NCBI GenBank assembly: GCA_022819985.1
Contig: JAJEGH010000028.1
Span: 62,001-126,000 of the forward strand
From: Alphaproteobacteria bacterium
GTDB lineage: Bacteria > Pseudomonadota > Alphaproteobacteria > Bin65
Direction of reading: 5' to 3'
Length of the DNA stretch: 64,000 nucleotides
In this document: positions 15,343 to 57,338 of the stretch, one piece after another
Layout: every line of letters begins with the position of its first letter
Numbering within the stretch: position 1 is the first letter of the stretch
Notes under the pieces: generated by a model
The model's input: only the letters and a program-made list of their open reading frames with translations
The model's database searches: none
What the model was told of the DNA's origin: nothing
Translations under genes and position numbers: made by a program

Positions 15343-15366
15343 GGCCGGGCCGTGGCCTCCGCCGTC

Positions 15367-16641
15367 TCAGCCGCGGTCATGCCCATGTCCATGGTCATGC
15401 CCGTGGTCCGCACCGCCGTTGTGCGACCGGCGGTAGTGCTGGCGCAGCAGGTCGATGCCGTAGTCGTTACCGTTGGGCGTGCGCACGATGGTGTGGACAT
15501 GGAATTTCGCCGGTTCCCGGTTGGTCAGGAAAACGCCGCTGTGCATGTCGAACTCGATGAACAGCACCGGGCTCTGGATGCGGTAATAGAAGGCGTCGGC
15601 CTCGCCCGTGCCGCCGATCCAGCAAAAATGCGTCTCGCCCAGATGGCGCTCGAAGTCCTCCAGGCGCGCCTGGCGCGGCCCGTCCGGCAGCATGGAAAGA
15701 TATTCGCCCGCCAGGTCGGTCAGCATCCGGCGGCGCCGGGCATCCATCCGCGCCGCTTCGAGCCCCTCGTAGGGCACGACGCGATTGTCCCGATATGCGC
15801 CGCCCAGATGCATGTGATCGGCGAAATGGCGCCTGCCCTCCGGCAGGCCGTCGCCGAGGATCGACCGGCCGACGATCGCCCTGTCCTGCAAATCCGGTGG
15901 CAGGGCGTTCATCAGCTCCAGGCCAAGCCGTTCGTGATCTCGGAACAGGCGCAGGCCGGCGTGGCGCCCGGTGCCGGCGCCGGTGATCTCGGCGCCCAGG
16001 AAAGCTGGCGTCAGCACCATCTGCCCGCCGAGCGCTAGGCAGTTGAGCGACAGGTGATGGCCGAACAGCTGCCAGCCCCAGGGATCGGCCGCCGAGGGCG
16101 CGCCGAACAGGCAGAAAGTGTAGCTCCATTCGTTGAGCACGCCGGGCGCGCTGAGCACTTCGCCGAGGAAAGCGTTGAGGCGCATGACGCCCTCGCTCGC
16201 CGCATAGCCGGCCTCGCTCAGGCTCGCCCGCACTACCGCCATGGCGAGCGAGCGCACAGGGGCGGCGGCCGTTTCCAGGCGCAGGCCGTGGTCCTCGACC
16301 AGCATCTCGGTGTTCTGCCACTTGTGCCACAGGGGAGAGCCGACGGGGTGCAGGGTCCGCGCCCGCTGGTCCGGTGTCAGGGCGTCGATCAGGCGCCAGG
16401 CCGCTTCGGCCATCGCCGCGGCCGGCGCTCCTTCCGGTTTCAGCGCGAACAGACCCTCGCGCTTCCGCCCGTTGTCGGTCAGGCCGTAGAAAGGTTCCTC
16501 CGCCAACGCCGCCCATTCGGCGAACAACTGCTGCGGCCGGGGCGTCGCCAGCCGCGCGGCGGTATGGTCCTCCGCCGTCGCCCCGGCGATCCTGGTTTCG
16601 CCGGGACCGGGGACATACGGGCGATAATCCAGCTGCGCCAT
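15367..16641 (-). CDS. DUF3500 domain protein
   Basis: A 424-residue protein of the uncharacterised DUF3500 family. Features typical of the family are the central WQLFGHHLSLN and the C-terminal IVRTPNGNDYGIDLLRQHY. An odd feature is a histidine-rich tail (HNGGADHGHDHGHGHDRG), which could bind metal. No catalytic motif is known to me. It lies between HpaB-like and MhpA-like oxygenases in one transcription unit (24 and 53 base gaps), so a role in the same catabolic pathway is likely. Confidence 0.75.
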   Translation of the reverse strand: MAQLDYRPYVPGPGETRIAGATAEDHTAARLATPRPQQLFAEWAALAEEPFYGLTDNGRKREGLFALKPEGAPAAAMAEAAWRLIDALTPDQRARTLHPVGSPLWHKWQNTEMLVEDHGLRLETAAAPVRSLAMAVVRASLSEAGYAASEGVMRLNAFLGEVLSAPGVLNEWSYTFCLFGAPSAADPWGWQLFGHHLSLNCLALGGQMVLTPAFLGAEITGAGTGRHAGLRLFRDHERLGLELMNALPPDLQDRAIVGRSILGDGLPEGRRHFADHMHLGGAYRDNRVVPYEGLEAARMDARRRRMLTDLAGEYLSMLPDGPRQARLEDFERHLGETHFCWIGGTGEADAFYYRIQSPVLFIEFDMHSGVFLTNREPAKFHVHTIVRTPNGNDYGIDLLRQHYRRSHNGGADHGHDHGHGHDRG

Positions 16642-16694
16642 TCAGCCCGAGCCTGACCGTAACGCCGGCAGAACGCATGGCGGCGGGCGGCCGC

Positions 16695-18176
16695 CTACTC
16701 CGCGGCCTCCGCCGCCATGTCCGCCTCCGGGACGTCGTAACTGTCCATCAGCCGGTCAACGACGGCGCCGAAATCGTCCCAGGGCGCTTCGCGATAGTTG
16801 TGGTTGCGGATGATGAAGGAGGCGCCGGCATAGAATTTCTCGTATTGCTGCTGACGCCCGGCGAATTCGCTGCCCACCATGTCCCACACCAGCTTGAACA
16901 GCTTCATCCGTTCGAGCGCCGGCAGCTGCGGCGTCTGCCAGTAGGTCTCGAACTGCGCGCGGATCTCCGGGTCGTTCATTACCGTGGCACTCGCCGGCAT
17001 CTGGAACACGCCGCCGCCGGACAGTTCGCGCAGCTGGTCGATGATCGCCGAGTAGCCCTCCGTACACCAGTTGAGCGCGGCATACATCATGCGCCGGTTG
17101 AAGGTGACGTAGCCGTCCGGCCATTGCTCCGCCGCCTCGATCTGGCCGTGGATCATGCCCGAGAGGGTCGCCTCCAGCGCCGCCATCCGGCCCAGCACTT
17201 CAAGGACCGCCGGCACCTCGATCGCGCCGGTCGCCTGCGCCACCTTGGAACACAGGCCGACGATCAGCTCCATCTTGGACCAGTAGCGCACGTTGGACTG
17301 GTGGTTGCCGTAGCAGTGCGCCGGCGTCTCGATATAGATGCTGCGCGCCTTGATGGCGTCGTCCATGACGAACACCTTCTCCCACGGCACGAAGACGTTC
17401 TCGCACATCACCATCGAGTCGGTCTCGTCGAAGCGCCAGGCGAGCGGGCCGTCGAACTCGTTCGAGGTATTGAGATTGAGCGGCTGGCGCGACCACAGGG
17501 TGAGGCCCGGCGCGCCCACCGGCACGGCGCAGGTCACCGCCTGCTTGACCTGGGTTGGCGCGAGCGGCAGCAGGTTGCCGATCCAAATGTCGTCGCAGAA
17601 GACCGCGCTGGTCGCCAGCATCTTCATGCCGCTGATGACGATGCCGTCGTCGCGCTCGTCGATCACCGAAAGCGTCGGCACCGGCAGGTTCTGGCGCGTG
17701 TAGAATTCCGGGTTGCGCGCCGCCTGGGGCGGCAGCACGGCATAGGTCGCGTAAACGTCGTTCCTGCGGCAGTGCTCGTAATAGGCGACCAGGCTGTCGC
17801 CGAACTTCCAGGTCTCGGTATCGAAGGCCGACGGCAGGGTCGACATGCCGGTGACGAAGCCGGAGACATGGTCCGGCGAGCGGCCGAACATGCCATAGGT
17901 CATGTCGGCGATGCCCTTATGGCATTTCAGGCGCCGGCGCAGATCGTCCTTCGATTTCGCGCGCAGATACCAGGTCGAATAGCGTTCGCCGTCCTCCTCG
18001 AAGGAATAGGTTTCGAGGTTTTCCGGCGCCCGCTTGGCGTCGTACATGTCGGCGACGGTCTGCGCCGCGGTCGCGAAGGCCGGATGGGTCGTCACGTCGT
18101 CGACCTTCTCGCCGCCGAGATAGACCGTCCGGCCGTCGCGCAGCCCTTCCAGATGCTCCTTGCCGGTCTTCAGCAT
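16695..18176 (-). CDS. 4-hydroxyphenylacetate 3-monooxygenase family (HpaB) oxygenase
   Basis: A 493-residue FADH2-dependent oxygenase related to HpaB. Recognisable pieces are LKTGKEHLEGLRDGRTVYL at the N-terminus, DDGIVISGMKMLATSAVFCDD in the central flavin/substrate region, ENVFVPWEKVFV and the ELSGGGVFQMPAS segment. The family hydroxylates phenols using FADH2 supplied by a separate reductase (HpaC). No reductase gene is adjacent. Start ATG 18176 matches the conserved N-terminus; the longer open frame upstream is spurious. It is followed by DUF3500 and MhpA-like genes. Confidence 0.88.
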   Translation of the reverse strand: MLKTGKEHLEGLRDGRTVYLGGEKVDDVTTHPAFATAAQTVADMYDAKRAPENLETYSFEEDGERYSTWYLRAKSKDDLRRRLKCHKGIADMTYGMFGRSPDHVSGFVTGMSTLPSAFDTETWKFGDSLVAYYEHCRRNDVYATYAVLPPQAARNPEFYTRQNLPVPTLSVIDERDDGIVISGMKMLATSAVFCDDIWIGNLLPLAPTQVKQAVTCAVPVGAPGLTLWSRQPLNLNTSNEFDGPLAWRFDETDSMVMCENVFVPWEKVFVMDDAIKARSIYIETPAHCYGNHQSNVRYWSKMELIVGLCSKVAQATGAIEVPAVLEVLGRMAALEATLSGMIHGQIEAAEQWPDGYVTFNRRMMYAALNWCTEGYSAIIDQLRELSGGGVFQMPASATVMNDPEIRAQFETYWQTPQLPALERMKLFKLVWDMVGSEFAGRQQQYEKFYAGASFIIRNHNYREAPWDDFGAVVDRLMDSYDVPEADMAAEAAE

Positions 18177-18235
18177 GTCGGGGCCTCCCGCCTCTCCGCG
18201 GCCTGCCGGGTTGCGCCGCGCCCGGCCCTTATAAC

Positions 18236-18640
18236 CTACAGTTCGCCCTCGAAAGGGTTTGTCTCGTCGTAATAATGGATTTCGTAGAGCAGGCAGCCGC
18301 CTTCGCTCTTGAACGGGCCATGATAGACGCCCGGCGGCCGGCAGGCATAGGTCGGCGCCAGGAAATTCTCCCCGCCCTCGCCCTTCTCGTCGTTGCCGAC
18401 GGTGAGGTCGCCCGAGACCAGATACACCTCTTCCCAATGATCGTGGACGAAGGGCACGGTGCTGAAGGCGCCCGGACCGAAGCGCAGGAACCGGGTCCGG
18501 CTGCCGATCCCGTTCGCCTCGTCGATGTCGCTGGCGAGGATTTTCTGTTGCACGCCGTCGTCCGTATAGCCGGGCGGCCTTTCCCAGCCGCTGTCCATAT
18601 CGAGCGCGAAGAACTCCATGTGCGGTTTGTTGAACGGCAC
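18236..18640 (-). CDS. Cupin-domain protein in aromatic oxygenase cluster
   Basis: A 134-residue single-domain cupin. Metal ligands are expected from FVHDHWEEVYLVSGDL (His, His, Glu) and CRPPGVYHGPF (His), i.e. a complete cupin metal site. It starts at GTG 18640 after GGGAGGG. It could be a small dioxygenase or a metal-binding isomerase. Its position directly before the HpaB-like gene suggests action on the hydroxylated product, which is inference. Confidence 0.8.
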   Translation of the reverse strand: MPFNKPHMEFFALDMDSGWERPPGYTDDGVQQKILASDIDEANGIGSRTRFLRFGPGAFSTVPFVHDHWEEVYLVSGDLTVGNDEKGEGGENFLAPTYACRPPGVYHGPFKSEGGCLLYEIHYYDETNPFEGEL

Positions 18641-18660
18641 TCTTCCCTCCCCGGTTGTCG

Positions 18661-19350
18661 CTAGCCTTCGACCGGCAGCGGCACGATCGCGTAGCGGTGG
18701 CGCAGGCGGCGACCCAGCACCGGGTCATCCAGTTCCATCTCGAACGCGGCAGCCGGGCGGATTTCGCCCCTTACCGCGAGGGTACCGCCGAACATGGCCG
18801 CGCCCTCCGGCAGGTCGCCGTAGAGGCCCTGCAGTTCCGCGGGCGGGCGCATCGCGGCGACCGCGCCTTCCTGATACAGGCTGCGTCCGCCGTCTTCCTC
18901 GATCCACGACCGCAGGATCAGGTCGTCCCAGTGGCCGGCCACCTCGTCATAGGGCCAGACCGCCGGGCCGACAGGCTTGGCGCACATCTGCTTGGACAGG
19001 GATACGCCGACGGTCTCGGCCTGCCGGTCGGTATGGTCCGAGCCAACGGCGACATAGTGGCGTCCGTCCAGGTTCAGGATGACCGTTTCCGCCTCGCCGC
19101 TGGAATGCGGCCCCGAGACCTGGATTTCCGCCGCAGTCGTCAACAAGGCCGCCGCGACCCGGTAGAACATCGGCACAGTCTTCGGCCGGGCGATGCCGAT
19201 CGCCTCCAGTTCGGCGATATGCGCTTCCATCGCCTCCCGGTTGCGCCCAGTCCAGCCGGCGATGACAAGTTCGCCGACGGCGGCGGCAAGCGCTTCGTTG
19301 CCGTCCTTCGTCTGCACCGTCAGATCGAGCTGCGCGGCACTCTCGCTCAT
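18661..19350 (-). CDS. DUF2848 family protein
   Basis: A 229-residue protein of the uncharacterised DUF2848 family. The family pattern includes an N-terminal AAVGELVIAGWTGR, a central VGSDHTDRQAETVGVSLSKQ and the KPVGPAVWPYDEV segment. Layout resembles fumarylacetoacetate-hydrolase-like folds, which would fit ring-fission product hydrolysis, but this is not established. It is the first gene of the minus-strand oxygenase operon. Start ATG 19350 was chosen over a much longer Arg/Gly-rich open frame. Confidence 0.75.
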   Translation of the reverse strand: MSESAAQLDLTVQTKDGNEALAAAVGELVIAGWTGRNREAMEAHIAELEAIGIARPKTVPMFYRVAAALLTTAAEIQVSGPHSSGEAETVILNLDGRHYVAVGSDHTDRQAETVGVSLSKQMCAKPVGPAVWPYDEVAGHWDDLILRSWIEEDGGRSLYQEGAVAAMRPPAELQGLYGDLPEGAAMFGGTLAVRGEIRPAAAFEMELDDPVLGRRLRHRYAIVPLPVEG

Positions 19351-19641
19351 GAGACCCCCGGATTGCGCTTCGTTCCGGCCGGCGCGGCCGGCGGACGCGC
19401 ATCCTAGCCCGGTTTTCCAACCGCAGTCACGGCCCCGCTTCGCCTGAGGATGCACCCGTTCCCGCCGCTTCCTCCGGTGCGGTCGCAGGGCGCGGTTACG
19501 CGCTGCGGGAACAGGAATGTCACGCCCGCGACGGCGACGACCGCCCGGACCGGCACGTCGTGGACCTGCGCTTTCGGTCATACGGCCCCGAACCGCCCCG
19601 GGGGTGGCAGGGATCGGCGGAGCGCCGCCAGGTCCTGCACG

Positions 19642-20292
19642 TCAGTGCATCGGGACGAACGCCATGGCAAGCGAGGTTTCGATCTCCGTCACCGCCTTCG
19701 AAACCTCCCGCCCTATCAGGTCCATCCGGCGGACCTGCTCGATTCGCGGCGCCGCGGATTTCAGCTCCCGCCCGGACATCAGGCCTTCGAAGATCCGGCA
19801 GACATCGGCCAGCGAAATGATGATGATGTCGCGCGCGTCCGGGATCTCGTCGCTCAGGATCACGCCCATGATCCGGAGCTTCACCTCGCGGACCGTCTTG
19901 TAGTCGTCGATCGGGTAGCGCCGGGTCCGCAGCACCCACATGAAGCGGTCCTCTTCGCGATGCAGGATGCCGCGCTCGACCAGACGGGCGAGCGACCGCT
20001 CGCGGATTTCCTCTGCGCTTCCGACCGTTTCCTTGATCCAGTGCCGCGAGTCGTAGGTTTCTTCCGCCTCGACGATCCGTTCCAGTACCGGATCGAGCAG
20101 ATCGTCGCCGACCGGGGTCGGATCGATCACGAAGAGGCGCTCCGGATCGGTATCGATCCGCCCTTCCATCGCGAGATCCATGAGAACCGCTCCGGCAAGG
20201 GCGTATTCGAGCGACAGCGTGGGCACGTCGATGAATCGTCCCCCCTTGTCGTCCAGCATGAGCAGCATGATCTCTTCCGAGAATCTCAACAT
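19642..20292 (-). CDS. GOLPH3/VPS74-family (GPP34) protein
   Basis: A 216-residue helical protein beginning MLRFSEEIMLLMLDDKGG, the hallmark of GPP34/GOLPH3 proteins, with LSLEYALAGAVLMDLAMEGRI and the RLVERGILHREED segment further in. In eukaryotes GOLPH3 binds phosphoinositides; bacterial members are uncharacterised, and a membrane-lipid-associated role is only a guess. The upstream open frame is unlikely to be coding. It is divergent from the microcompartment operon with a 332 bp spacer. Confidence 0.82.
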   Translation of the reverse strand: MLRFSEEIMLLMLDDKGGRFIDVPTLSLEYALAGAVLMDLAMEGRIDTDPERLFVIDPTPVGDDLLDPVLERIVEAEETYDSRHWIKETVGSAEEIRERSLARLVERGILHREEDRFMWVLRTRRYPIDDYKTVREVKLRIMGVILSDEIPDARDIIIISLADVCRIFEGLMSGRELKSAAPRIEQVRRMDLIGREVSKAVTEIETSLAMAFVPMH

Positions 20293-20624
20293 TCGGGCGA
20301 ACTCCTGAATCGGGACGTGGGCAATCGCTGTAGCTTGACAGTCGCCCGACCATAGCGCGGCGTTTGCGGCTTGCACAATTCCATTCGGCACGCGCCCGTC
20401 GAAATTTCGTGAGCCCGCCCGGAGGCGCGAGCGGACCGCTGCAGCGGTGGCCCGATCGCCCCCGGCATTCCCTCGTCGCACAACCCGTAACCTTCCGGAG
20501 GGCGAAACAACCGCGGAATCGTCCGATCCTGCCGTGTGGCCCGGCAGCCACTTGAGACGGCGATCGGGACGGACGACACTTCCGCCCTACAGCCGGCCGC
20601 CGGCCCTTTCGGGAGGAAGCCTCC
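20293..20624. promoter_or_regulatory. Divergent control region of the BMC operon, with a 14-bp palindrome
   Basis: This 332 bp spacer separates the GPP34 gene and the microcompartment operon. It contains the perfect palindrome ACCGCTGCAGCGGT at 20435-20448, a candidate operator. No clear sigma-70 pair was seen; an isolated TTGACA lies at 20335-20340. GGGAGGAAG precedes the dioxygenase ATG. Confidence 0.45.
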
Positions 20625-21701
20625 ATGAGCCACGCCCATATCACGGTCGAGCCGATGACGCCGACGATCGGCGCCATGGTCTCGAATGTCGATCTTAACA
20701 ATGTCCGCTCCGACGCGGTCTACGAAGAGATCAAGGCGGCGCTGTGGGAGTATCACGTCCTGTTCTTCCGCAACCAGCCGATCGAGCCGGAGCCCTATAT
20801 CCGGCTGGGAAAACAGTTCGGCGAACTGGAAGAGCATGAATTCTTCCCCCACATCGAAGGCTATCCGCAGATCCAGACCATCGCCCATGAGGGCTACGAC
20901 CAGCCGGAAACCGACCGCTGGCACACCGATGTCACGTTTCGCGCCCGGCCGAGCAGCGTCAACCTGCTGCGCGCGGTGAAGCTGCCGCCGGCCGGCGGCG
21001 ACACGGTCTGGTCGTCCACCGCGGCGGCCTTCAACGCCCTGCCGGACCAGGTCAAGACCATGCTGCTCGGCCTCCAGGCGGACCACGACCTGCCGCACCA
21101 TCAGCGCCGGATCGATTTCTACCGCCGGGTCGAGGAAGGCCGGATCGGCGGCCAGTCGATGATGAACTCGATGGCCAATGAGCACGAGTTCCGGCTGATC
21201 GAGCAGAACCCGATCGTGACCCATCCCGCGGTCATCAACCATCCGGTCACCGGGCGGCTGACCCTGTTCGTCAACTCGATCTGGACCAAGAAATTCTTCG
21301 GCGTCCATCTGGATATCAGCGACGCGCTCCTGGCCATGCTCTTCGAGTGGGTCAAGAAGCCGGAATTCCTAGTGCGCTTCCGCTGGGAGACCGATTCGCT
21401 GGTGATCTGGGACAATTTCGCGACCCAGCATTACGCGGTGTTCGATTACGCACCGAACTACCGGGGCATGCACCGGATGACGGCCGGTTCGGCCGAACCG
21501 CGCCTCGACATGGCGACGGTTCCGGTGCATCTGCGGCCGCCCTCGGCCTCGGCCGGCAACGGCGCGGGGCCGCGTTCGATCGTCGATACCGAGCGGCTGG
21601 CCGCTGCGCCCGCGGCGGAACGGGCCGCGGTTCACGCCGTATTCAATGCCCTCGACGGCGTCGATCTCGATGCCATCGGCGCGCGCGCGGCCGGCATCTG
21701 A
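20625..21701 (+). CDS. TauD/TfdA-family Fe(II)/2-oxoglutarate dioxygenase with BMC-linked C-terminal tail
   Basis: A 358-residue dioxygenase. The Fe-binding facial triad is His100 and Asp102 (WHTD) and His269 (QHYAVFDY). Arg280 or Arg284 would hold 2-oxoglutarate (YRGMHRMT). Family members oxidise substrates such as taurine, often releasing an aldehyde, with O2 and 2-oxoglutarate. TauD proteins normally end shortly after the last arginine: a second family member at 56335-57201 is only 288 residues. Here about 70 residues follow: a Pro/Ser/Gly/Ala linker (~304-317) and a helical segment (~325-355). Such linker-plus-helix tails are how many cargo enzymes enter microcompartments. It is the first gene of the BMC operon, 32 bases before the aldehyde dehydrogenase. 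The substrate is unknown; taurine is only one candidate. Confidence 0.82.
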   Translation: MSHAHITVEPMTPTIGAMVSNVDLNNVRSDAVYEEIKAALWEYHVLFFRNQPIEPEPYIRLGKQFGELEEHEFFPHIEGYPQIQTIAHEGYDQPETDRWHTDVTFRARPSSVNLLRAVKLPPAGGDTVWSSTAAAFNALPDQVKTMLLGLQADHDLPHHQRRIDFYRRVEEGRIGGQSMMNSMANEHEFRLIEQNPIVTHPAVINHPVTGRLTLFVNSIWTKKFFGVHLDISDALLAMLFEWVKKPEFLVRFRWETDSLVIWDNFATQHYAVFDYAPNYRGMHRMTAGSAEPRLDMATVPVHLRPPSASAGNGAGPRSIVDTERLAAAPAAERAAVHAVFNALDGVDLDAIGARAAGI

Positions 21702-21733: not shown

Positions 21734-23191
21734 ATGGACAAGGACCCCCAAGCACTGCAAAGCAGCCGGGACCTGCTGCGCCGCGCGCAAGCGGCAGCGG
21801 AAGAGTTCCGGCACATTCCACCGGCCCGGGCCATGGCGATTGCGGGCACGGTCGCCAAGGCGGCGGCCGGGCGCGCCCGTCACTACGCCGAATGGGCGGT
21901 CCGGGAAACCGGCTTCGGCAAGGTCGAAGACAAGATCGACAAGAACCTTTCCGGCAGCATCCGGATCTACGAGGCGCACCGCGACCGGCCGATCGGCGGC
22001 ATCCGGCAGGACCGGGCGCGCAACATCGTCGAGATCGGCCGCCCGGCCGGCGTGATCGTCGGCCTGTCCAATTCGACCTCGCCGGTCGGCACCATCTATT
22101 TCAAGGCGATGCTGGCGCTGATGACGCGCAACGCCATCGTGTTCAGCCCGCACCCGGCGGCGCTCGCCTGCAGCGGCGATGCGACGCAATTTCTCGAAAA
22201 GGCGGCCCGGCTCGCCGGCGCACCGGCCGACGCCATCCAGATTCTCGCCGAGCCGACCCTAAAGGCGACCAACGCGCTGATGCAGGCCGACGAGACCGAT
22301 CTGGTGATCGCGACCGGCGGTGCCGCAATGGTGCGCGCGGCCTACAGTTCGGGCAATCCGGCGCTCGGCGTCGGGCCGGGCAACACGCCGGTCTATGTTG
22401 ACCGGACGGCCGATCTGTCCTTCGCGGCGGAAAAGATCGTCGAGGGCAAGCAATACGACTACGGCACGCCCTGTTCGGCGCCGTCGGTCGTATTGGCCGA
22501 CAAGCCGATCGGGCGCGAGTTGCGCGACCTGTTCGAGCGGGAGGGCGCCTATTTCTGTTCCGACGAGGAACTGGCGACGCTCGAGGCGGCGGCGTTCCCC
22601 GGAGGCCGGCTCAATCCCGCAATCATCGGCCAGCCCGCCGGCCGGGTGGCGCAAATCGCCGGGCTGTCGCTGCCGCCGGAAACCCGGGCGATCGTCGGGT
22701 TCGTGAAGGATGCCGAACGCGTGCCGCCGATGGCGCGGGAGAAACTCTCCGTCCTGCTCGGCGCCGCGGCCGTCGACGGGGTGGAAGGCGCCATCGCCAT
22801 CGCCCGCTACATGCTCCGTTCGGCCGGCAGCGGCCACACTGCCGCCATCTTCACCGGCGACCCGGAACAGGCGGTACTGTTCGGCGCCGCGCTGGACTAT
22901 TACCGCGTCGTGGTCAACGGCGACCCGACCGTCGGCGCGATCGGCCAGGGCACCGGCCTGCCCGTCACCTTCACCATTGGCACCGGCTTCGCCGGCAAGA
23001 GCTCGATCGACCATAACCTCGGTCCCGAAGACCTGGTCGACTGGAAGCGTGTCGCCTTTCCCGTCGGCGAAGCTCCGGCGACCGGGGCGGATGCGGAACG
23101 GGCCAGGCCGGCCCGCGGCACCGACGCGACGGTGGACGCGTTGAAGGAAGAAATCCGGCGCATCGTCGCCGAGGAACTGGCGCGGAACTGA
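21734..23191 (+). CDS. BMC-type aldehyde dehydrogenase (CoA-acylating family)
   Basis: A 485-residue enzyme of the PduP/EutE/SauS-like acylating aldehyde dehydrogenase group. Catalytic Cys247 lies in YDYGTPCSAPSVV. The nucleotide/CoA loop GVGPGNTPVYVD and ATGGAAMVRAAYSSG are diagnostic. The family converts aldehyde, NAD and CoA to acyl-CoA and NADH. After an Ala/Pro/Gly linker (~445-465) the C-terminus is an amphipathic helix, VDALKEEIRRIVAEELARN, which looks like a shell-targeting encapsulation peptide. It lies directly before the first shell gene with a 4-base gap. The substrate would be whatever aldehyde the TauD-like enzyme makes, which is inference. Confidence 0.88.
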   Translation: MDKDPQALQSSRDLLRRAQAAAEEFRHIPPARAMAIAGTVAKAAAGRARHYAEWAVRETGFGKVEDKIDKNLSGSIRIYEAHRDRPIGGIRQDRARNIVEIGRPAGVIVGLSNSTSPVGTIYFKAMLALMTRNAIVFSPHPAALACSGDATQFLEKAARLAGAPADAIQILAEPTLKATNALMQADETDLVIATGGAAMVRAAYSSGNPALGVGPGNTPVYVDRTADLSFAAEKIVEGKQYDYGTPCSAPSVVLADKPIGRELRDLFEREGAYFCSDEELATLEAAAFPGGRLNPAIIGQPAGRVAQIAGLSLPPETRAIVGFVKDAERVPPMAREKLSVLLGAAAVDGVEGAIAIARYMLRSAGSGHTAAIFTGDPEQAVLFGAALDYYRVVVNGDPTVGAIGQGTGLPVTFTIGTGFAGKSSIDHNLGPEDLVDWKRVAFPVGEAPATGADAERARPARGTDATVDALKEEIRRIVAEELARN

Positions 23192-23195
23192 GCCG

Positions 23196-23813
23196 ATGCC
23201 GACCCTGCGCTCCTATATCTTCCTCGACCAGCTGCAGCCGCAGACCATGTGCTACATCGGCTCGACGATGCGCGGCTTCCTGCCTCGCCAGCGCGATGCG
23301 GCGATGATCGTCGAGGTCGCGCCGGGCATGGATATCGAGTGGCTGACCGACATCGCGCTCAAGCACGACGACATCCGCCCCGGCAATCTCGTCGTCGAGC
23401 GCCAGTTCGGCTATCTGGAGTTCCACGCCGGCGATCCGGCCTCGGTCCGTTCGGCAGGCGCGGCGATCCTGGAAGCGGCCGGCGCTTCGGCGGCAGACGC
23501 GATACCGCCGGAAATCCTGGCGTCGAAAATCGTCGACCGGGTCGACCCCTACCATTCCTTCCTGGTGAACCGGAACAAGCAGGGCAGCATGCTCCTGCCC
23601 GGCGACACCCTGTTCATATTCGAGATGACACCGTCGGCCAACGCGCTGCTGGCCGCCAACGAGGCCGAGAAGGTGGCCGACGTGAAGCTGGTCGACTGCC
23701 GCTTCATGGGCGCCGCCGGCCGGCTTTACATGGCGGGCACGGCGTCGGACGTGCGCACGGCCGCCGAGGCCGCCAGGGCGGCGCTCGGCGCCGTGGGTGC
23801 GGGAGGGGCATAG
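23196..23813 (+). CDS. Microcompartment shell protein, tandem BMC domain trimer (BMC-T), copy 1
   Basis: A 205-residue protein with two fused BMC domains (~5-105 and ~106-200). It strongly resembles the gated, double-stacking BMC-T type (CsoS1D and the Haliangium T2/T3 group), for example LRSYIFLDQLQPQ at the N-terminus and LANRN/VNRNKQGSMLLPG in the second domain, with NEAEKVADVKL near the end. Three copies form a pseudohexamer tile, and the family can form stacked dimers with a pore that opens for larger metabolites such as cofactors. It lies two bases before the next gene. Confidence 0.9.
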   Translation: MPTLRSYIFLDQLQPQTMCYIGSTMRGFLPRQRDAAMIVEVAPGMDIEWLTDIALKHDDIRPGNLVVERQFGYLEFHAGDPASVRSAGAAILEAAGASAADAIPPEILASKIVDRVDPYHSFLVNRNKQGSMLLPGDTLFIFEMTPSANALLAANEAEKVADVKLVDCRFMGAAGRLYMAGTASDVRTAAEAARAALGAVGAGGA

Positions 23814-23815
23814 CG

Positions 23816-24679
23816 ATGGCGGAGCACACGGAAGCGATCCGGAAACTGGTTCGGGAGGCGATCGCCGAATTGCAGGGTGCAGACGCGCCGCCGCCCGCCG
23901 CCGGCACCTCACCAACCGCGCCGCTGCGTATTCCCGTCGTCATCCGAGACAGCGCCGACGCCGGCCGACTGGCGCAGCTGGTAACGGCCATCGCCGCCTC
24001 GCCCGAACTGGGGCCGCGCCTGAAGGGCGGCGCCATCGCCTTCGACGCACGTCTGGCGGCCCAGACCGATGGGAGGGCGGACGGGCCCGCGGAAGCCGAA
24101 GCGCGGGCGGCGTTCGACCGGTTCTTCGAGGCCTTCAACACCGGCGAGTTCGACCGGGTCTGGGAAACCGTCACCGACGATTTCGAATGGCGCCTGCCGG
24201 GCGGCCCCGATGCGCCCTACACCTCGGCGAAAGGCAAGGCCGCTTTCCGCGACGCCTATACGAAGCGCTGGGATTTTCTCAAGCATTTCACCGCGGTCAA
24301 CGAGGTCGTGTTCGTCAGCGGCGACCGCGTCTACCAGCACTACCGCGTCACTGGCACCGGGCCCGACGGCAAAATCTACGATTTCACCGGGCTGGACTTC
24401 TACATTGTGCGCGACGGGAAGATCGCGCTGAAGGACGCCTTCAACAAGTCCGTGCCGCCCGACAGCCGATCGGGCGCTGCGAAGCGCGCCGCCCCGGGCG
24501 GTGCGCGTACAGGTGCACCGTCGATCGATATCGCCAACGGCGTCGTCACCGAGCGCAAGGTCGCAGAGGCCGCCCGGCTCGGCACCCGACTGGTCGTCGG
24601 TCGCCATGCGGTCGTCACGCCGCTCGCCCGCGACCGCGCCAAATCCCTCGGCCTGACCATCGAGAGGAGCGACCCATGA
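23816..24679 (+). CDS. BMC-locus SnoaL-like (NTF2-fold) protein with N-terminal encapsulation-like helix
   Basis: A 287-residue protein of unusual architecture. Residues 1-20 (MAEHTEAIRKLVREAIAELQ) form an amphipathic helix, followed by a Pro/Ala linker. Residues ~38-82 are a short unassigned domain. Residues ~95-212 match the SnoaL/NTF2-like fold (FDRFFEAFNTGEFDRVWETV, DFTGLDFYIVRDGKI), a family of small isomerases, cyclases and hydratases. Residues ~236-284 contain VVTPLARDRAKSLGL, a motif I associate from memory with termini of other BMC proteins such as EutQ. The N-terminal helix closely matches the aldehyde dehydrogenase tail (IRKLVREAI versus IRRIVAEEL), so both are probably cargo. The reaction is unknown. 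The stop overlaps the BMC-P ATG. Confidence 0.8.
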   Translation: MAEHTEAIRKLVREAIAELQGADAPPPAAGTSPTAPLRIPVVIRDSADAGRLAQLVTAIAASPELGPRLKGGAIAFDARLAAQTDGRADGPAEAEARAAFDRFFEAFNTGEFDRVWETVTDDFEWRLPGGPDAPYTSAKGKAAFRDAYTKRWDFLKHFTAVNEVVFVSGDRVYQHYRVTGTGPDGKIYDFTGLDFYIVRDGKIALKDAFNKSVPPDSRSGAAKRAAPGGARTGAPSIDIANGVVTERKVAEAARLGTRLVVGRHAVVTPLARDRAKSLGLTIERSDP

Positions 24680-24927
24680 AATCCGGCACCGTCGTCGGCC
24701 GCGTCTGGGCCACCAAGCGGATCGACCGGCTTCCGGCCGGCGCCCTGCTGGAAATCGAGCTGGACGGCCGCGCCAAGGAGCGGGTGATCGCCTTCGACCC
24801 GCTCGGCTCGGGCGACGGCGAGCGCGTGCTCGTCACCTTCGGGCGCGCCGCCACCAACTGGTTCCCCGAGGGCAAGGCCGTCGTGGACGCCCTGATCGTC
24901 GGCTCGCTCGACGAAAACGGAAGCTGA
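24676..24927 (+). CDS. Microcompartment vertex protein BMC-P (EutN/CcmL family)
   Basis: An 83-residue pentameric vertex protein that caps the icosahedral corners of the shell. The N-terminus MKSGTVVGRVWATKRIDRLP is characteristic of EutN/CcmL proteins, followed by the beta-barrel strand motif VIAFDPLGSGDGERVLVTFG and the conserved RAATN loop. The ATG at 24676 overlaps the upstream stop (ATGA), giving coupled translation. Only one BMC-P is present. Longer upstream-frame readings are spurious. Confidence 0.93.
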   Translation: MKSGTVVGRVWATKRIDRLPAGALLEIELDGRAKERVIAFDPLGSGDGERVLVTFGRAATNWFPEGKAVVDALIVGSLDENGS

Positions 24928-24972: not shown

Positions 24973-25248
24973 ATGTCTCAAGCTGTAGGAATGATCGAAA
25001 CGGTCGGCTACGTCGCCGCCTATGCGGCGGCCGACGCCATGGTCAAGGCCGCGAACGTCACCATCGCGGGCCGCGAGCAGGTCGGCGGCGGCCTGGTCGC
25101 GGTCAGCGTCACCGGCGATGTCGGCGCAGTCAAGGCGGCGACCGAGGCCGGCGCAGAGGCGGCATCCCAGGTCGGCGAGGTCAAGTCGGTGCACGTCATC
25201 CCGCGTCCGCACGCCGACGTGCAGAAAGCGTTCGCCGGCGGCAAATGA
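24973..25248 (+). CDS. Microcompartment hexameric shell protein BMC-H
   Basis: A 91-residue single-domain BMC protein, the bulk shell tile. Features include [20 protein letters not shown] at the start, the pore/edge motif [20 protein letters not shown] with a glycine-rich pore loop, and the family C-terminal [16 protein letters not shown] chose ATG 24973 over ATG 24961 because GGAGG lies five bases before it; the longer form would place that site inside the gene. It lies 45 bases after BMC-P and before the second BMC-T. Confidence 0.95.
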
Positions 25249-25299: not shown

Positions 25300-25929
25300 A
25301 TGCCTGAGCTGCGGGTCTACCTGACGCTGAACGGGCTGCAGCGCCAGTTTGCGGCCTATCTCAGTTCGCCGGTGCCGGCGCGCGGCTACGTTCCGCTCGA
25401 GGGCATGCATTCGCTGATCATCGAGATCGCGCCCGGCTTGGTGATCGAGCGGGTGATCGATCTCGCGCTCAAGTCGGTGCCGTCCCTCGAACCGGGCATC
25501 CTTGCGGTCGAGCGCCAGTTCGGCGTGCTCGAACTGCACAGCGAGGACCGGAGGGCGCTCGGCCGGGGCGGCCGGGCGATCCTCAAATGGCTCGGGGCAA
25601 AGCCGGAGGATCAGCTCAAGCCGCAGATCCTGTTCTCCGACATTATCGAGGACGTCACCGACCAGCATGCCGTTATCGTCAACCGGTCGAAGCAGGCCAA
25701 CATGATCCTGCCCGGCCAGAGCCTCCTGCTGATCGAGTGCGTGCCGGCCCTGTTCGCCGCCTTCATCGCCAACGAGGCGGAAAAGGTGCAGCCCGGCATC
25801 AGCCTGGTCGAGTGCCGCATGATCGGCGCCAGTGGCCGGGTTTACATGGCGGGCGAGGCCGGTACGCTGAACGACGCGCTTGCGCACGTTACCGAGGCGC
25901 TTGACGCGCTGCCCGGCCGAGCGGACTGA
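25300..25929 (+). CDS. Microcompartment shell protein, tandem BMC domain trimer (BMC-T), copy 2
   Basis: A 209-residue tandem BMC protein paralogous to the 23196 gene (shared landmarks ELRVYLTLNGLQRQ at the N-terminus, IVNRSKQANMILPG, NEAEKVQPGISLVECRM). It has the same gated double-stacking (T-double) type as copy 1. Paired T-double proteins can mix in stacked pores. It begins 51 bases after BMC-H and is the last shell gene. No single-layer BMC-T (T1 type) is encoded in the window. Confidence 0.9.
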   Translation: MPELRVYLTLNGLQRQFAAYLSSPVPARGYVPLEGMHSLIIEIAPGLVIERVIDLALKSVPSLEPGILAVERQFGVLELHSEDRRALGRGGRAILKWLGAKPEDQLKPQILFSDIIEDVTDQHAVIVNRSKQANMILPGQSLLLIECVPALFAAFIANEAEKVQPGISLVECRMIGASGRVYMAGEAGTLNDALAHVTEALDALPGRAD

Positions 25930-26032: not shown

Positions 26033-27115
26033 GTGACGGACCCGAAACCAACGACAGTGGCGATCGTGGCTGCCGACGGGGTGCTGTCTTCGGCAATTGC
26101 GGGGCCGTTCGATATCCTGTCCAGCGCCGGTTACCTGTGGCAGGTGCTGAATGCAGACCCGGCTTCGGCGCGGCGCTTCGACGTGACCGTAGGCGCGCGC
26201 CGGAAGGGACCGTTGCGCTGCTATCAGGGCCTGACCGCCATGGCGGACAAGGCGCTCAAGGACATGCCTGCGCCGGATATTGCCTTCGTGCCGACGGTGT
26301 TCCTGCCCTCGCTGCTGGAAGAGCCGATCGGGATTGCGGATACCTGGCGCCCGATCGTGTCCTGGCTCGCGGCGGCCTACACCAACGGCAGCCTGGTCTG
26401 CTCGAATTCGTCGGGCGCGCTGCTGCTCGCCGAGGCCGGCCTGCTCGACGGCCGGGCGGCGACGATCCACTGGACGCTGGCCGAGCGGGCGCAACGGAAA
26501 TATCCGGCGATCCGATTTCAGCCCCACCGGGTGCTCATACCGGCCGGTCCGGGCGAGCGCATCGTTACGGCCGGCGGCGGCACCTGCTGGCAGGATCTGG
26601 CACTCTACCTGATCGCCCGCTTCGCCGGATCGGTGACCGCCGCGCAAACCGCCAAGTCCTTCACGATCTTCCGCAAGGTGCGCGGCCAGCAGCCCTACGC
26701 CGAATGGTTTCCGCCGCGCAAACACGGCGACGCGGCGGTCGCCCGGGCGCAGCAGATCCTGCACCGGGACTTTCCGTCCGCCGACGTGCTGTCCTGCGCC
26801 GTCGCGGCGTCGCGCCTGTCGCCGCGCACCTTCAAGCGGCGCTTCAAGGCGGCGACCGGCCAATCGGCGACCGACTATATCCAGCACCTCCGGGTCAAGG
26901 AGGCCCGCTTCAGGCTGGAGACCACCAACAACAGCATCGAGGAAATCGGCGCGCGGATCGGCTACCGGGACGTCGCCTTTTTCCGCACCCTGTTCCGGCG
27001 TCTCGTAGGCCTGACGCCCGGCCAGTATCGCGAACAGTTCGGCCTGCTGGAATATCCGGGGGCCGATCCGTTCGATTCCGCCGTCGAACCCTTTGACGCC
27101 GGGGCGGCGTCATAG
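26033..27115 (+). CDS. GlxA-family transcriptional regulator (DJ-1/PfpI plus AraC domains)
   Basis: A 360-residue regulator. Residues ~8-190 form a DJ-1/PfpI class I glutamine-amidotransferase-like sensor domain (VAIVAADGVLSSAIAGPFDIL; the nucleophile-elbow region reads VCSNSSGALLLAEAG, with Ser in place of the usual reactive Cys). Residues ~225-330 are the AraC-type helix-turn-helix (VAASRLSPRTFKRRFKAATG, LVGLTPGQYREQFG). The start is GTG 26033. It sits between the shell genes and the TRAP transporter, so it is the likely regulator of the locus. Confidence 0.88.
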   Translation: MTDPKPTTVAIVAADGVLSSAIAGPFDILSSAGYLWQVLNADPASARRFDVTVGARRKGPLRCYQGLTAMADKALKDMPAPDIAFVPTVFLPSLLEEPIGIADTWRPIVSWLAAAYTNGSLVCSNSSGALLLAEAGLLDGRAATIHWTLAERAQRKYPAIRFQPHRVLIPAGPGERIVTAGGGTCWQDLALYLIARFAGSVTAAQTAKSFTIFRKVRGQQPYAEWFPPRKHGDAAVARAQQILHRDFPSADVLSCAVAASRLSPRTFKRRFKAATGQSATDYIQHLRVKEARFRLETTNNSIEEIGARIGYRDVAFFRTLFRRLVGLTPGQYREQFGLLEYPGADPFDSAVEPFDAGAAS

Positions 27116-27169: not shown

Positions 27170-28168
27170 ATGAAATTCCGTTCGACCATTCTGGCGCTGA
27201 GCGCAGCAGCGCTGCTGACCGCGCCTGCCGCTCAGGCGCTGGAGCTCAAGCTTTCCATTTCGCCGCCGCCGCAAACGCCGTGGGGCAAATTCGTCATAAG
27301 AATTGCCGAGAAGGTCAAGAAGGCTTCGGGCGGCACGCTGACGATCAAGAACTATTTCAACGACCAGCTTTCCGGCAACGAGCAGAACACGATCCGCCAG
27401 ATCGTGCGCGGCCGCGTCGACCTGGGCGCGCACTCGAACACGGGCATTTCGCTGGTCGCGCCGGAATTTGCCCTGCTCGCTGCGCCGTACCTCTGGAAAG
27501 ACCTGAAGGAAGCCGATTGCGTGGCCGACAAGCATCTGCTGCCGGTCTACGAAGGGCTGCTGCGCAAGGGCGGCGTGGTGCCGCTGAGCTGGATGGAGGT
27601 CGGCAACCAGATCGTGTTCGCCAAGAAGACGATCAAGTCGCCGGCCGATCTCGCCGGCGTCAAGCTGCGCACCGCGCCGACGCCGACCGATACGACCTAT
27701 ATGAAGGTCGCCGGCGCCAGCGCCATTCCGCTGGGGACCGCGGAAAGCATGCCCGCGATCAAGACCGGCGTCGTCAACGCCACGACATGGCCCACGGTCT
27801 ACGGCATTGCGGTCGGCTATCACAAGGTCGCCCCGTATGTGACCGTGACCAACCATTCGCACCAGCTCGGCGGGGTCGTTATCAGCAAGAAGGTCTGGGA
27901 CGGCCTTAACAAGCAGCAGCAGGGTTGGCTGAAGTCCGCGCACGAAGAGGTCGGATTCCTGCGCAAAGCCGTCCGGGGCGCCGAAGTCGCGTTGCTCGGA
28001 AAGATCGCGAAGGGCGGCGCGACGGTCTACCGGCCGAATGCAGAGGAAATGAAGGCCTGGCGCGCCAAGGCGCCGGCCGCCCAGGCGCAGATCATCAAGG
28101 ATCTCGGTGGCCAGGCGGCCGAGGTCTGGAAGCGCCTGCAGGCCGCCCGCAAGGCCTGCGCCGCTTGA
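27170..28168 (+). CDS. dctP: TRAP transporter substrate-binding protein DctP family
   Basis: A 332-residue periplasmic binding protein of a TRAP transporter. Residues 1-23 are a signal peptide ending QALELKLS. DctP features include WGKFVIRIAEKVKKASGG at the start of the mature part, LAGVKLRT in the hinge with the arginine that binds the ligand carboxylate in the family, and NATTWPTVYGIAVG. It binds probably a carboxylate or sulfonate compound for import. A GGGAGGAAA ribosome site precedes it. DctQ and DctM follow at once, completing the transporter, which likely feeds the BMC locus. Confidence 0.88.
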   Translation: MKFRSTILALSAAALLTAPAAQALELKLSISPPPQTPWGKFVIRIAEKVKKASGGTLTIKNYFNDQLSGNEQNTIRQIVRGRVDLGAHSNTGISLVAPEFALLAAPYLWKDLKEADCVADKHLLPVYEGLLRKGGVVPLSWMEVGNQIVFAKKTIKSPADLAGVKLRTAPTPTDTTYMKVAGASAIPLGTAESMPAIKTGVVNATTWPTVYGIAVGYHKVAPYVTVTNHSHQLGGVVISKKVWDGLNKQQQGWLKSAHEEVGFLRKAVRGAEVALLGKIAKGGATVYRPNAEEMKAWRAKAPAAQAQIIKDLGGQAAEVWKRLQAARKACAA

Positions 28169-28184
28169 CCGGCACCAAGCTCGT

Positions 28185-28688
28185 ATGCGCAGCGGCCTAG
28201 CCCGCGCGCTGCGCACGCTCTACTGGTTCGAGGCCGGGCTCGCCACCGCCGCCAACGCGGCGGTGGCGAGCCGGCTTCTTGCCGATGTCCAGTCGCGGGA
28301 AATACTCGGCGAGGCGATCTGGGGCGCGCAGAAAATAGCGGTTTTCGGCGCGATTATCGCTGGCTTTCTCGGTCTGGTGCTCTCAACCGCATCGAACAGC
28401 CATTTGCGCCCGCAATTCGCCGACGGCTGGTTCCCGCGCGCCTGGAGCCCGGGCGTCAGCCGCATCGGCGATGTCGTGTCGGGTCTGCTCTATATCGGCT
28501 TCGGCATCGTGGCGCTCGGCTATGTCGAGGAGAGCATCGTCGCCAGGGAACGCGCCGCGGTGCTGTATACGCCCCTGTGGCCGATCCAGATCGTCCTGCC
28601 CTACGCCTTCTTCTCGTCGGCGGTGCGGCACTTCTCCTTTGCCGCCTTTCCGGAGCTGAAGCCCGCGGCGCGGCCCGAAGAGGGCTGA
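28185..28688 (+). CDS. dctQ: TRAP transporter small permease DctQ family
   Basis: A 167-residue integral membrane protein with four hydrophobic segments (GAIIAGFLGLVLS, ISVVSGLLYIGFGIVAL, PIQIVLPYAFFSSAVR are recognisable). It is the small membrane subunit that partners DctM. Start ATG 28185 overlaps no gene and lies 16 bases after dctP; longer upstream frames are dctP shadow. The GVSRIGDVVSG segment matches DctQ size and pattern rather than exact motifs. Confidence 0.78.
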   Translation: MRSGLARALRTLYWFEAGLATAANAAVASRLLADVQSREILGEAIWGAQKIAVFGAIIAGFLGLVLSTASNSHLRPQFADGWFPRAWSPGVSRIGDVVSGLLYIGFGIVALGYVEESIVARERAAVLYTPLWPIQIVLPYAFFSSAVRHFSFAAFPELKPAARPEEG

Positions 28689-28692
28689 CGCC

Positions 28693-29952
28693 ATGGAAGC
28701 GCTCGGCCTGATCGGCCTCGTCCTGCTGCTTCTGGCATTCCGCCAGAACGTCATCCTGATTCTGCTAACGGCGACCGCCTTTGTCCATCTGGTGTGGGGC
28801 GACGGCCGGATCTCCTATCTGGTCGACGATATGTGGGGCAGCCTCAACAACGAGGTCCTGCTCGCCATCCCCATGTTCATCGCCGCCGGCAACGTGATGA
28901 CGCGCGGCTCGATCGCCGAACGGCTGATCGAGGTCATGCGCGTCCTGACGCAATGGCTGCCCGGCGGCCTCGCGGTCGCTACCATTCTGTCCTGCGCGGT
29001 TTTCGCCGCGATTTCCGGCTCGTCGCCGGTCACGTTGCTGGCGGTCGGCACGATCCTGTATCCGGCCTTGCTGCGCGAAGGCTATTCCAGGAGCTTCTCG
29101 CTCGGTGCGCTCACTTCAGGCGGCACGCTCGGCATCATTATTCCGCCGTCGATCCCGCTCATCCTCTACGGGATCGTAACCGAGAAATCGATTTCCGACC
29201 TGTTCACGGCCGGCATCATGCCGGGGCTCCTGCTGACGGCGGTGCTCAGCATCTACGCCCTCTGGGTCAACCGGCAACTGCCGGCGAAGCCGTGGGATTT
29301 TCTGGCCATAGGCGAGGCGCTGCGCAAGGGCATCTGGGCGCTCCTTCTGCCGGTCGTCCTGCTCGGCGGCATCTATTCCGGTTATTTCTCGGCGACCGAA
29401 GCCGCCGCGGTGGCGCTGGGCTATGCGCTGTTCATCGAGATTTTCGTGCATCGCGAGATGCGGGTGCGGGACTTCTTCAACACCTCGGTCGAGACGGCGA
29501 AGCTGCTCGGCACGCTGTTTCCTATCGTGGCGGTCGCGCTCAGCATCAAGTCGCTGCTGACCGTCGAGCAGGTACCCCACGCGCTCGCCGAATGGATCGG
29601 CACGATTGTTACCGATCCGGTCACCTTCCTGCTGGCGATGAACCTGCTGCTGTTGCTGGTCGGCTGTTTCATCGACGTGATTTCGGCCATCCTGATCCTC
29701 GGGCCGCTGATGCTCGGCATTGCCGAAACCTACGGCATCAACCCGATCCATCTCGGCATCATCATGGTGATCAATCTGGAGGTCGGTTTCCTGACGCCGC
29801 CGGTCGGCCTCAACCTGATCGTTGCGATGACGGCCTTCCGGGAATCCTTCTTCCTGGTCTGCCGGGCCGTCCTGCCCTTCATCGCCCTGATCCTGGCGGT
29901 GCTGATGATTGTGACCTTCGTGCCCGAAGTGTCGCTGTTCTTCCTCCAGTAG
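28693..29952 (+). CDS. dctM: TRAP transporter large permease DctM family
   Basis: A 419-residue polytopic protein with about 12 hydrophobic segments. Diagnostic motifs are AIPMFIAAGNVMTRG near the N-terminus, FAAISGSSPVTLLAVGTILYP and SLGALTSGGTLGIIIPPSIPLILYG, with LNLIVAMTAFRESF near the end. It is the channel component of the TRAP importer with DctP and DctQ, probably cation-coupled as in the family. It lies four bases after dctQ and before the amidase gene. Confidence 0.92.
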   Translation: MEALGLIGLVLLLLAFRQNVILILLTATAFVHLVWGDGRISYLVDDMWGSLNNEVLLAIPMFIAAGNVMTRGSIAERLIEVMRVLTQWLPGGLAVATILSCAVFAAISGSSPVTLLAVGTILYPALLREGYSRSFSLGALTSGGTLGIIIPPSIPLILYGIVTEKSISDLFTAGIMPGLLLTAVLSIYALWVNRQLPAKPWDFLAIGEALRKGIWALLLPVVLLGGIYSGYFSATEAAAVALGYALFIEIFVHREMRVRDFFNTSVETAKLLGTLFPIVAVALSIKSLLTVEQVPHALAEWIGTIVTDPVTFLLAMNLLLLLVGCFIDVISAILILGPLMLGIAETYGINPIHLGIIMVINLEVGFLTPPVGLNLIVAMTAFRESFFLVCRAVLPFIALILAVLMIVTFVPEVSLFFLQ

Positions 29953-30019: not shown

Positions 30020-31288
30020 GTGCGGATCGTGAGCGAAATCTACAACGCCATCGGGTTGCAGACCGACACGGTCGACTGCAAGTTCCGAATCGGCGATGCA
30101 CCGGACTACGAGCGCAACCTGCGCCATCTCGACCACATGATCGACATGGCGGTGCTCCATTCCATGGAATACCGGCCGCGCCTGCTGGTGCTTTGCGAGG
30201 GCGCGATCCAGGGTTTCCCGGACGAGTATCACGACTGGGAATCGGCGGCCTACGCCCGCAGCGGCGCCATCGACATTCCCGGCCCGGTCACCGACCGCCT
30301 GGCGGAAAAAGCGGTCAAATGGGATCTCTACCTGATCGGCCAGGCCAAGGCGCGCATGCCGGAGTTTCCCGACCGCTTCTTCAACACCGCCTTCATCATC
30401 GATCCGGCCGGCGAGATCGTTCACCTCCACCGCAAGAACGTCGTCTTCACCATCGAGCACACGACCACGCCGCACGATGTCTGGGACCAGTGGGTCGCGA
30501 TGTTCGGCGACGGGCTCGACGCCTTCTTCCCGGTTGCGAGAACGCCGATCGGCAATATCGGCTGCCTGATCTGCATGGAGGGCAACTATCCGGAACTGGC
30601 GCGCGGTCTGATGATGAACGGTGCGGAAATCGTTTACCGGCCGAGTTCCATCGAGAACAAGATTTCGACCGGCGTCTGGCAGATCCAGAACCGGGCCCGC
30701 GCGCTGGACAACAACTGCTACGTCATCGCGCCGAATACCGGCTATCACATCGTCGATTCAGCCGGCACGCGCGGCTTCGTGACCGGCGGCCACCCGATGA
30801 TCGTCGATTATCGCGGCCGGATCGCGCACGAGATCCGGACCCAGGGCGACGCCTTCGTCGCCGCGCCGATCAATATCGAGGGGTTGCGCCAGCACCGCGC
30901 GAACGCACGCCAGAACAACTGGGCGCCCCACATGAAGACCGAGCTCTACCGGCTGATCTACGAGATGGCGGTGTGGCCGAAGAACCTGGCGGCGACCCGG
31001 CCGCCGCAGCGCCGCGAGGCGACGGACGAAATCTATTTCCAGACCATCCGGAACCTGCAGGAAGCGGGGGTGCAGATGCCGCCGGCCGCCGTTTCCAGCC
31101 GGGCCGACGCGGGCGGTACGTCGGCCGGACAGTCGCTCAGGGAGCACATTCTCGAACGGGCTGCGGCGATGGAAAACGGCGGGCGTGCCGAACCGCAGGC
31201 CCCCAGGCTGCGAGTCGTGCGGACCGGCAGACCGGATGGAGAACCGACAGAAGAAGCCGCGCCCGTTCCGTCCGAGGCCGCGGAATAG
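30020..31288 (+). CDS. Nitrilase/aliphatic amidase family hydrolase with long C-terminal tail
   Basis: A 422-residue member of the carbon-nitrogen hydrolase superfamily. The Glu-Lys-Cys triad is visible as Glu60 (VLCEGAIQGF), Lys139 (HRKN) and Cys185 (LICMEGNYPE). It would hydrolyse an amide, nitrile or formamide to acid and ammonia. The core ends at about residue 335. The last ~90 residues are Ala/Pro/Gly-rich, apart from a helix QSLREHILERAAAM at ~375-388 resembling encapsulation-peptide helices. The GTG 30020 start follows GAGAAG; GTG 30029 is an alternative. It is the last gene of the BMC-TRAP unit. The substrate is unknown. Confidence 0.82.
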   Translation: MRIVSEIYNAIGLQTDTVDCKFRIGDAPDYERNLRHLDHMIDMAVLHSMEYRPRLLVLCEGAIQGFPDEYHDWESAAYARSGAIDIPGPVTDRLAEKAVKWDLYLIGQAKARMPEFPDRFFNTAFIIDPAGEIVHLHRKNVVFTIEHTTTPHDVWDQWVAMFGDGLDAFFPVARTPIGNIGCLICMEGNYPELARGLMMNGAEIVYRPSSIENKISTGVWQIQNRARALDNNCYVIAPNTGYHIVDSAGTRGFVTGGHPMIVDYRGRIAHEIRTQGDAFVAAPINIEGLRQHRANARQNNWAPHMKTELYRLIYEMAVWPKNLAATRPPQRREATDEIYFQTIRNLQEAGVQMPPAAVSSRADAGGTSAGQSLREHILERAAAMENGGRAEPQAPRLRVVRTGRPDGEPTEEAAPVPSEAAE

Positions 31289-57201: not shown

Positions 57202-57338
57202 CCTCTCATGGTCCCGTTCGGTTGCTATGCACATACGGCATGCCGCCTGGCTGCGGCCAGACCGGCCGGGGGCGGAATTTTGGCAGAAATCCGCGAATTT
57301 TCCCGGATTCGAACGCACCCGCCGGCGCCGCCGTTCCG

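Follow-up and report, generated by a model that had tools for sequence, protein, structure and literature searches.

A SnoaL-like domain within a candidate shell-cargo linker protein of an alphaproteobacterial microcompartment locus

What does a SnoaL-like protein do when its gene lies among the shell genes of a bacterial microcompartment (BMC)? The question is raised by a locus in the window analyzed here, a stretch of 64,000 nucleotides of an alphaproteobacterial contig. A first-pass annotation had read the protein as a probable enzyme of the compartment, or possibly a scaffold of its core, and had known of no BMC type with a SnoaL-like core protein; our literature search likewise yielded no paper joining SnoaL with a bacterial microcompartment. 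A catalogue of BMC types has been published (PMC8217296).

Results

Organization of the microcompartment locus

The locus contains both a BMC-H and a BMC-P gene, the combination by which a bacterial microcompartment locus is recognized. Its genes are as follows.

20625-21701, plus strand: TauD-family 2-oxoglutarate dioxygenase with a C-terminal extension of about 70 amino acids; proposed aldehyde-forming enzyme
21734-23191, plus strand: acylating aldehyde dehydrogenase (EutE/AdhE-like)
23196-23813, plus strand: BMC-T shell protein 1 (CcmP-like)
23816-24679, plus strand: SnoaL-bearing candidate linker protein, 287 amino acids (open reading frame, Pfam, alignments with orthologs and short homologues)
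24676-24927, plus strand: BMC-P vertex protein (EutN/CcmL; Pfam)
24973-25248, plus strand: BMC-H hexamer shell protein (EutM-like)
25300-25929, plus strand: BMC-T shell protein 2 (CcmP-like)
26033-27115, plus strand: DJ-1/PfpI-AraC type regulator (Pfam)
27170-29952, plus strand: TRAP transporter DctP-DctQ-DctM (DctP by Pfam; DctQ and DctM from sequence and synteny)
30026-31288, plus strand: carbon-nitrogen hydrolase of the amidase family, found at the locus in each of the six congeners (Pfam, synteny)

The C-terminal helix of the aldehyde dehydrogenase resembles an encapsulation peptide by eye, with a hydrophobic moment no better than that of shuffled sequences. Divergently oriented genes lie upstream (13741-20481, minus strand) and encode an FAD monooxygenase, a DUF3500-like protein, HpaB, a GntR-like regulator and a further small protein interpreted as a flavin reductase; in L042, an alphaproteobacterial locus outside the genus, genes for HpaB and a reductase-like protein likewise adjoin the BMC genes. 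In some congeners, genes for a permease-like protein (read as of xanthine/uracil type) and a phosphopantetheinyl-transferase-like protein separate the TRAP transporter genes from the amidase gene (L014, 16189-17979; L015, 15854-18535; L016, 2020-4878).

The SnoaL-bearing gene and its four parts

The gene at 23816-24679 is an open reading frame on the plus strand with an ATG start, encoding a protein of 287 amino acids (P0001), and its GC content by codon position (0.70/0.53/0.84) is typical of real genes in the window. Its ATG follows the BMC-T stop at 23813 by two bases, and its own stop codon shares bases with the start codon of BMC-P at 24676 (ATGA); translation of the gene and its neighbors is therefore probably coupled, as the first-pass annotation had proposed for a gene lying between shell genes. 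The protein is divided as follows.

23816-23875, plus strand: N-terminal amphipathic helix, residues 1-20, encapsulation-peptide-like, also in the short homologues (alignment, hydrophobic moment)
23924-24058, plus strand: short domain, residues 37-81, also in the short homologues; beta-alpha-alpha-beta predicted with low confidence (alignment, model)
24098-24454, plus strand: SnoaL_2/NTF2-fold domain, residues 95-213, confined to this genus among homologous loci (Pfam, Foldseek, alignment, profile)
24521-24670, plus strand: C-terminal module, residues 236-285, with VTPLARDRA (profile and family matches to the C-termini of TIGR02536 and PduM; weak resemblance to the EutQ N-terminus)

This order of helix, short domain, SnoaL domain and VTPLARDRA module is the one described in the first-pass annotation, and it was confirmed. 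The helix that it had called targeting-like is, as a sequence pattern, modestly amphipathic, since 4.7% of shuffled sequences attain its hydrophobic moment of 0.53. Alignment showed that the short domain (about residues 37-81) and the C-terminal module (residues 236-285) are conserved across families.

The SnoaL domain

The fold assignment stood up to closer inspection. Pfam SnoaL_2 (PF12680) matched residues 101-204 with an E value of 2.5e-19 (70.2 bits; gathering cut-off, 27), and the Pfam SnoaL family matched P0001 with an E value of 3.2e-9. The AlphaFold model of the protein is weak (mean pLDDT, 56.7; about 70 over parts of the SnoaL domain), and a Foldseek search with this weak model retrieved the SnoaL/NTF2 folds 6hnl, 3kkg and 9iqm (E values of about 1e-6; probability, 1.00). 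The closest free-standing SnoaL_2 relatives are found in other Alphaproteobacteria at 41% identity, in varied gene contexts, some of them housekeeping, that do not hint at any reaction. Judged by its sequence, the domain is an ordinary member of the widespread NTF2-like family.

Five polar residues typical of the family (R151, D194, K206, D207 and K211) do not vary within the genus, while D122 does; G192, D194, K206, D207 and K211 are retained in all six orthologs and in the majority of 30 relatives. Because R151, D194, K206, D207 and K211 are invariant within the genus, catalysis by the domain is conceivable, and we put its chances at about even. Three further invariant residues, Y135, H157 and H175, differ from the commonest residue of the relatives or from the typical motif, which may indicate that the pocket has altered.

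Homologues without SnoaL in other families

BMC-P genes were surveyed in 385 genomes of the class, and a second, overlapping sample comprised 398 genomes of the phylum. A BMC-P match was found in 14 of the 385 class genomes, several of which have shell genes arranged as in the window. The slot of the SnoaL-bearing gene is filled by a protein of about 140 amino acids without SnoaL in seven homologous BMC loci, which belong to four other families of Alphaproteobacteria. In genome G047, P0002 (144 amino acids) is encoded between BMC-T and BMC-P, and six further loci (L040 to L045) carry the same kind of short protein. The gene order BMC-T, linker gene, BMC-P, BMC-H, BMC-T is kept in L019 and L040 to L044, and in L045 as far as BMC-H, where the contig ends. 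Six of the seven short proteins align with three orthologs from the genus at the helix, the short domain and the C-terminal module, with nothing in the place of SnoaL; the seventh, from L042, is more divergent.

Profile searches of the seven homologous loci detected neither a SnoaL protein anywhere in them nor a TauD protein, and no fusion of SnoaL to the C-terminal module was found outside the genus in the 385 class and 398 phylum genomes of the two overlapping samples. SnoaL was present in all six loci of the genus and absent, by profile, from nine other alphaproteobacterial loci with a BMC-P match, and a reading of SnoaL as a general BMC enzyme was rejected on these grounds. If absence of the gene from homologous loci is taken as the measure, the outcome is divided: the protein slot is present in them, and the SnoaL domain occurs only in this genus (six of six loci). 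The best reading of these alignments is a lineage-specific insertion of SnoaL into a pre-existing BMC protein family, since loss of SnoaL in all other loci, though possible, needs more steps.

The same gene is present without SnoaL in seven related loci, and the conserved job therefore appears to lie in the flanking parts. This argues against the first-pass reading of the SnoaL protein as simply a core enzyme; the alternative guess made there, that the protein might scaffold the core, came nearer, as the flanks resemble the linkers PduM and EutQ.

Distribution within the genus and selection

Five of the six congeners carry an ortholog of the SnoaL-bearing gene (82-87% identity) in the same core gene order, and the domain is present in all six loci of the genus (the window and five congeners). 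In the remaining congener, G006, the SnoaL protein, BMC-P and TauD are missing together. The ortholog proteins come from six separately assembled genomes and share about 90% mean pairwise identity. Mean pairwise dN/dS within the genus was lowest for SnoaL (0.16), followed by the short domain (0.18), the C-terminal module (0.22) and the helix (0.23), and reached 0.40 and 0.78 in the two interdomain linkers. Judged by these substitution rates, SnoaL is therefore a maintained, functional part of the protein under purifying selection.

In a contig scan with two peptide seeds, which covered close relatives only, four congeners were Rhodospirillaceae metagenome-assembled genomes by their public names, and at least one is named after the sponge Spongia. 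Isolate names suggest a sponge origin of the remaining congeners.

The C-terminal module and linker-type proteins

To place the C-terminal motif, which the first-pass annotation had described as of a kind seen in other BMC proteins, the nine members of the linker family were compared with NCBIfam models. All nine matched the C-terminus of TIGR02536 (about 42 amino acids; best E value, 2.5e-5), and four matched the C-terminus of PduM (TIGR04493; about 45 amino acids; best E value, 1.8e-5), in line with that description. In each of five BMC genomes searched, the module had a single strong match, which lay within the BMC locus.

The relationship is one of a module, and membership in PduM, EutQ or TIGR02536 is ruled out by the curated cut-offs. 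P0001 alone matched TIGR02536 with an E value of 0.029 (14.0 bits; curated cut-off, 152.6) and the EutQ NCBIfam model with an E value of 0.12, below the curated cut-off, and had no match to the PduM model at an E value of 1; the best family member scored 24.7 bits against PduM TIGR04493 (curated cut-off, 50). A search of P0001 for the cupin domain of EutQ (PRK15457) gave no match, SnoaL being present instead, and TIGR02536 was found in none of 100 phylum genomes searched.

The EutQ N-terminus matches the same stretch of TIGR02536 as the C-terminal module does (E values, 0.0025 to 0.026). Compared directly, the module and EutQ gave an hhalign E value of 0.003 and a BLAST E value of 2e-4 for the pair, with a profile E value of only 0.06. 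EutQ ranked top among 369 reading frames of the eut region for the C-module profile, and 3 of 5,000 shuffles of its N-terminus scored higher. This direct similarity is suggestive only.

A short module is seemingly common to P0001 (24521-24670), P0002, TIGR02536, PduM and the EutQ N-terminus; PduM has been described as without homologues outside Pdu compartments. Separately, the NCBIfam model PRK10719.1-1 (EutA) matches the N-terminus of E. coli EutQ (L078, 16303-17004) with an E value of 1.6e-9, a hint that the linker region of EutQ may also exist as a fusion with other Eut proteins.

The TauD-family dioxygenase and the metabolic setting

The TauD-family protein at 20625-21701 is 95-96% identical across the genus, including its C-terminal extension, and is confined to the BMC-bearing genomes of the genus, all six of which have it. 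The extension lies outside the region covered by other TauD hits and is modeled with a pLDDT of 30; it does not make a convincing amphipathic helix, and a reading as an encapsulation peptide was rejected, its hydrophobic moment being no better than that of shuffles. The protein retains the ligands of iron (H100, D102 and H269), of 2-oxoglutarate and of the sulfonate (H71 and R284), whereas the taurine-amine pocket positions Y73, D94, N95, S158 and F159 are changed; these roles follow the literature on E. coli TauD. Taurine itself was rejected as the substrate because the amine-pocket residues are lost, and the protein scored 257.8 bits against the taurine dioxygenase model PRK09553, below the cut-off of 313. 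The dioxygenase is likely the entry enzyme of the BMC, and a sulfonate or sulfate ester as substrate, with an aldehyde as product, is a reasonable guess. A second TauD-family protein (56335-57318, minus strand; E value of 9e-25 by TauD profile) is encoded away from the BMC locus.

Related alphaproteobacterial loci have a class III aminotransferase beside the aldehyde dehydrogenase, and several also have an APH-type kinase, a layout known from aminoalcohol-type RMM/AAUM loci (PMC4207490). Neither the aminotransferase nor the kinase was found in the window or the congener loci. The gain of SnoaL and the swap to TauD thus coincide and, being confined to one genus, count as one evolutionary event. 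A literature search on BMCs and taurine dioxygenase returned one paper, on anaerobic C2 sulfonate degradation, and a further search on TauD gave no mention of bacterial microcompartments in the 12 best-ranked of 210 papers.

Discussion

Collectively, these findings suggest that the product of 23816-24679 is probably a shell-cargo linker of an uncharacterized aerobic metabolosome. The function is proposed because the relatives of its C-terminal module have published core-shell roles. Deletion of H1/H2 separates EutQ from shells, and deletion of H3/H4 separates it from cargo (PMC12487888). Loss of PduM partly separates core from shell, and the PduM N-terminus is a targeting signal (PMC9132943, PMC12108088), although part of the PduM linking model is disputed (PMC12108088). 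The features of a PduM-like linker, an N-terminal targeting-type helix (by sequence pattern) and a C-terminal module, are present in the window protein.

We propose that the N-terminal amphipathic helix would join the coalescing enzyme core, as the C-terminal helix of the aldehyde dehydrogenase would, and that the VTPLARDRA module would dock on the shell, like the related-looking H1/H2 region of EutQ. In this genus, SnoaL would have been inserted between the short domain and the C-terminal module and would be held in the lumen beside the shell, much as EutQ carries its cupin. The TauD-like dioxygenase would convert a sulfonate-type substrate to an aldehyde for the acylating aldehyde dehydrogenase, and the SnoaL domain may act on the product of the dioxygenase, a step to which we give slightly better than even chances.

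The domain may instead be structural and non-catalytic, a dimerizing insert that makes the linker bivalent like the cupin dimer of EutQ; we regard this, the main alternative, as a realistic possibility, somewhat short of even. NTF2/SnoaL domains usually dimerize, EutQ dimerizes via its C-terminal domain (PMC12487888), the homologues without SnoaL imply that the domain is dispensable for the core job, and purifying selection on SnoaL also fits a structural part. However, the retained R151, D194, K206, D207 and K211 (D122 varies) are not obviously needed by a pure dimerization module, and the dimer domain of EutQ has itself been reported to have activity.

Rather unlikely is a protein that is the working enzyme of the core, an isomerase, hydrolase or lyase acting on an intermediate, with the helix and C-terminal module as mere targeting tags. 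Enzymes of the superfamily (limonene epoxide hydrolase, ketosteroid isomerase and polyketide cyclases) were among the Foldseek matches, and SnoaL appears together with a changed entry enzyme. Against this, the seven homologous loci that keep the protein without SnoaL imply that it is not primarily that enzyme, and the nearest free-standing relatives occur in contexts without a clue to a reaction. A neutral insertion, or a fusion with no function in the compartment, is very improbable: the confinement of SnoaL to one genus would fit, but six genomes keep it with a dN/dS no higher than that of the targeting modules.

Taken to its full extent, the reading of a linker with an inserted SnoaL domain would describe an oxygen-dependent BMC of sponge symbionts, in which an encapsulated TauD-family enzyme cleaves C-S or related bonds, the aldehyde passes to the acylating dehydrogenase and a shell-fixed SnoaL protein serves as both linker and enzyme. 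As a whole, this scenario is quite unlikely to be correct in every part. The combination of a SnoaL-carrying linker with a possible oxygen-using, sulfonate-type aldehyde source was described nowhere in the literature searched.

Shell-cargo linkers are poorly recognized. A C-terminal module common to PduM, TIGR02536, the alphaproteobacterial family and possibly the EutQ N-terminus would be a sequence tag for linkers across BMC types, and its association with a cupin in one case and SnoaL in another suggests that linkers gain different domains. The replacement of an aminotransferase by TauD together with a new linker domain offers a natural test of whether the added domain tracks the substrate, and the locus suggests that sponge symbionts have an aerobic microcompartment, possibly one linked to sulfonates.

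Among known systems, PduM shares with the window protein an N-terminal targeting helix, a C-terminal module and, according to the published studies, a structural role between core and shell. It differs in having no SnoaL domain; only the C-terminal 45 or so residues match, with scores below the cut-off, and shell contact is not assigned to the C-terminus of PduM, the part matched by the C-terminal module. The gene pduM lies directly upstream of the BMC-P gene pduN, as the window linker gene lies upstream of its BMC-P gene. EutQ likewise combines a linker region with a separate folded domain, and its H1/H2 region resembles the C-terminal module; however, the module is N-terminal in EutQ and C-terminal here, the folded domain is a cupin rather than SnoaL, and the direct similarity is weak. 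TIGR02536 (eut_hyp) belongs mostly to Gram-positive ethanolamine loci, and the rest of this 207-amino-acid family is unmatched, with all scores far below the curated cut-off. Free-standing SnoaL_2/NTF2-like proteins share the fold and conserved residues but lack the BMC modules and come from genomes without a detected BMC-P. Finally, the related alphaproteobacterial loci with the RMM/AAUM-type layout have shell and aldehyde dehydrogenase genes homologous to those of the window, whereas the window locus has a TauD-family dioxygenase in place of the aminotransferase and kinase.
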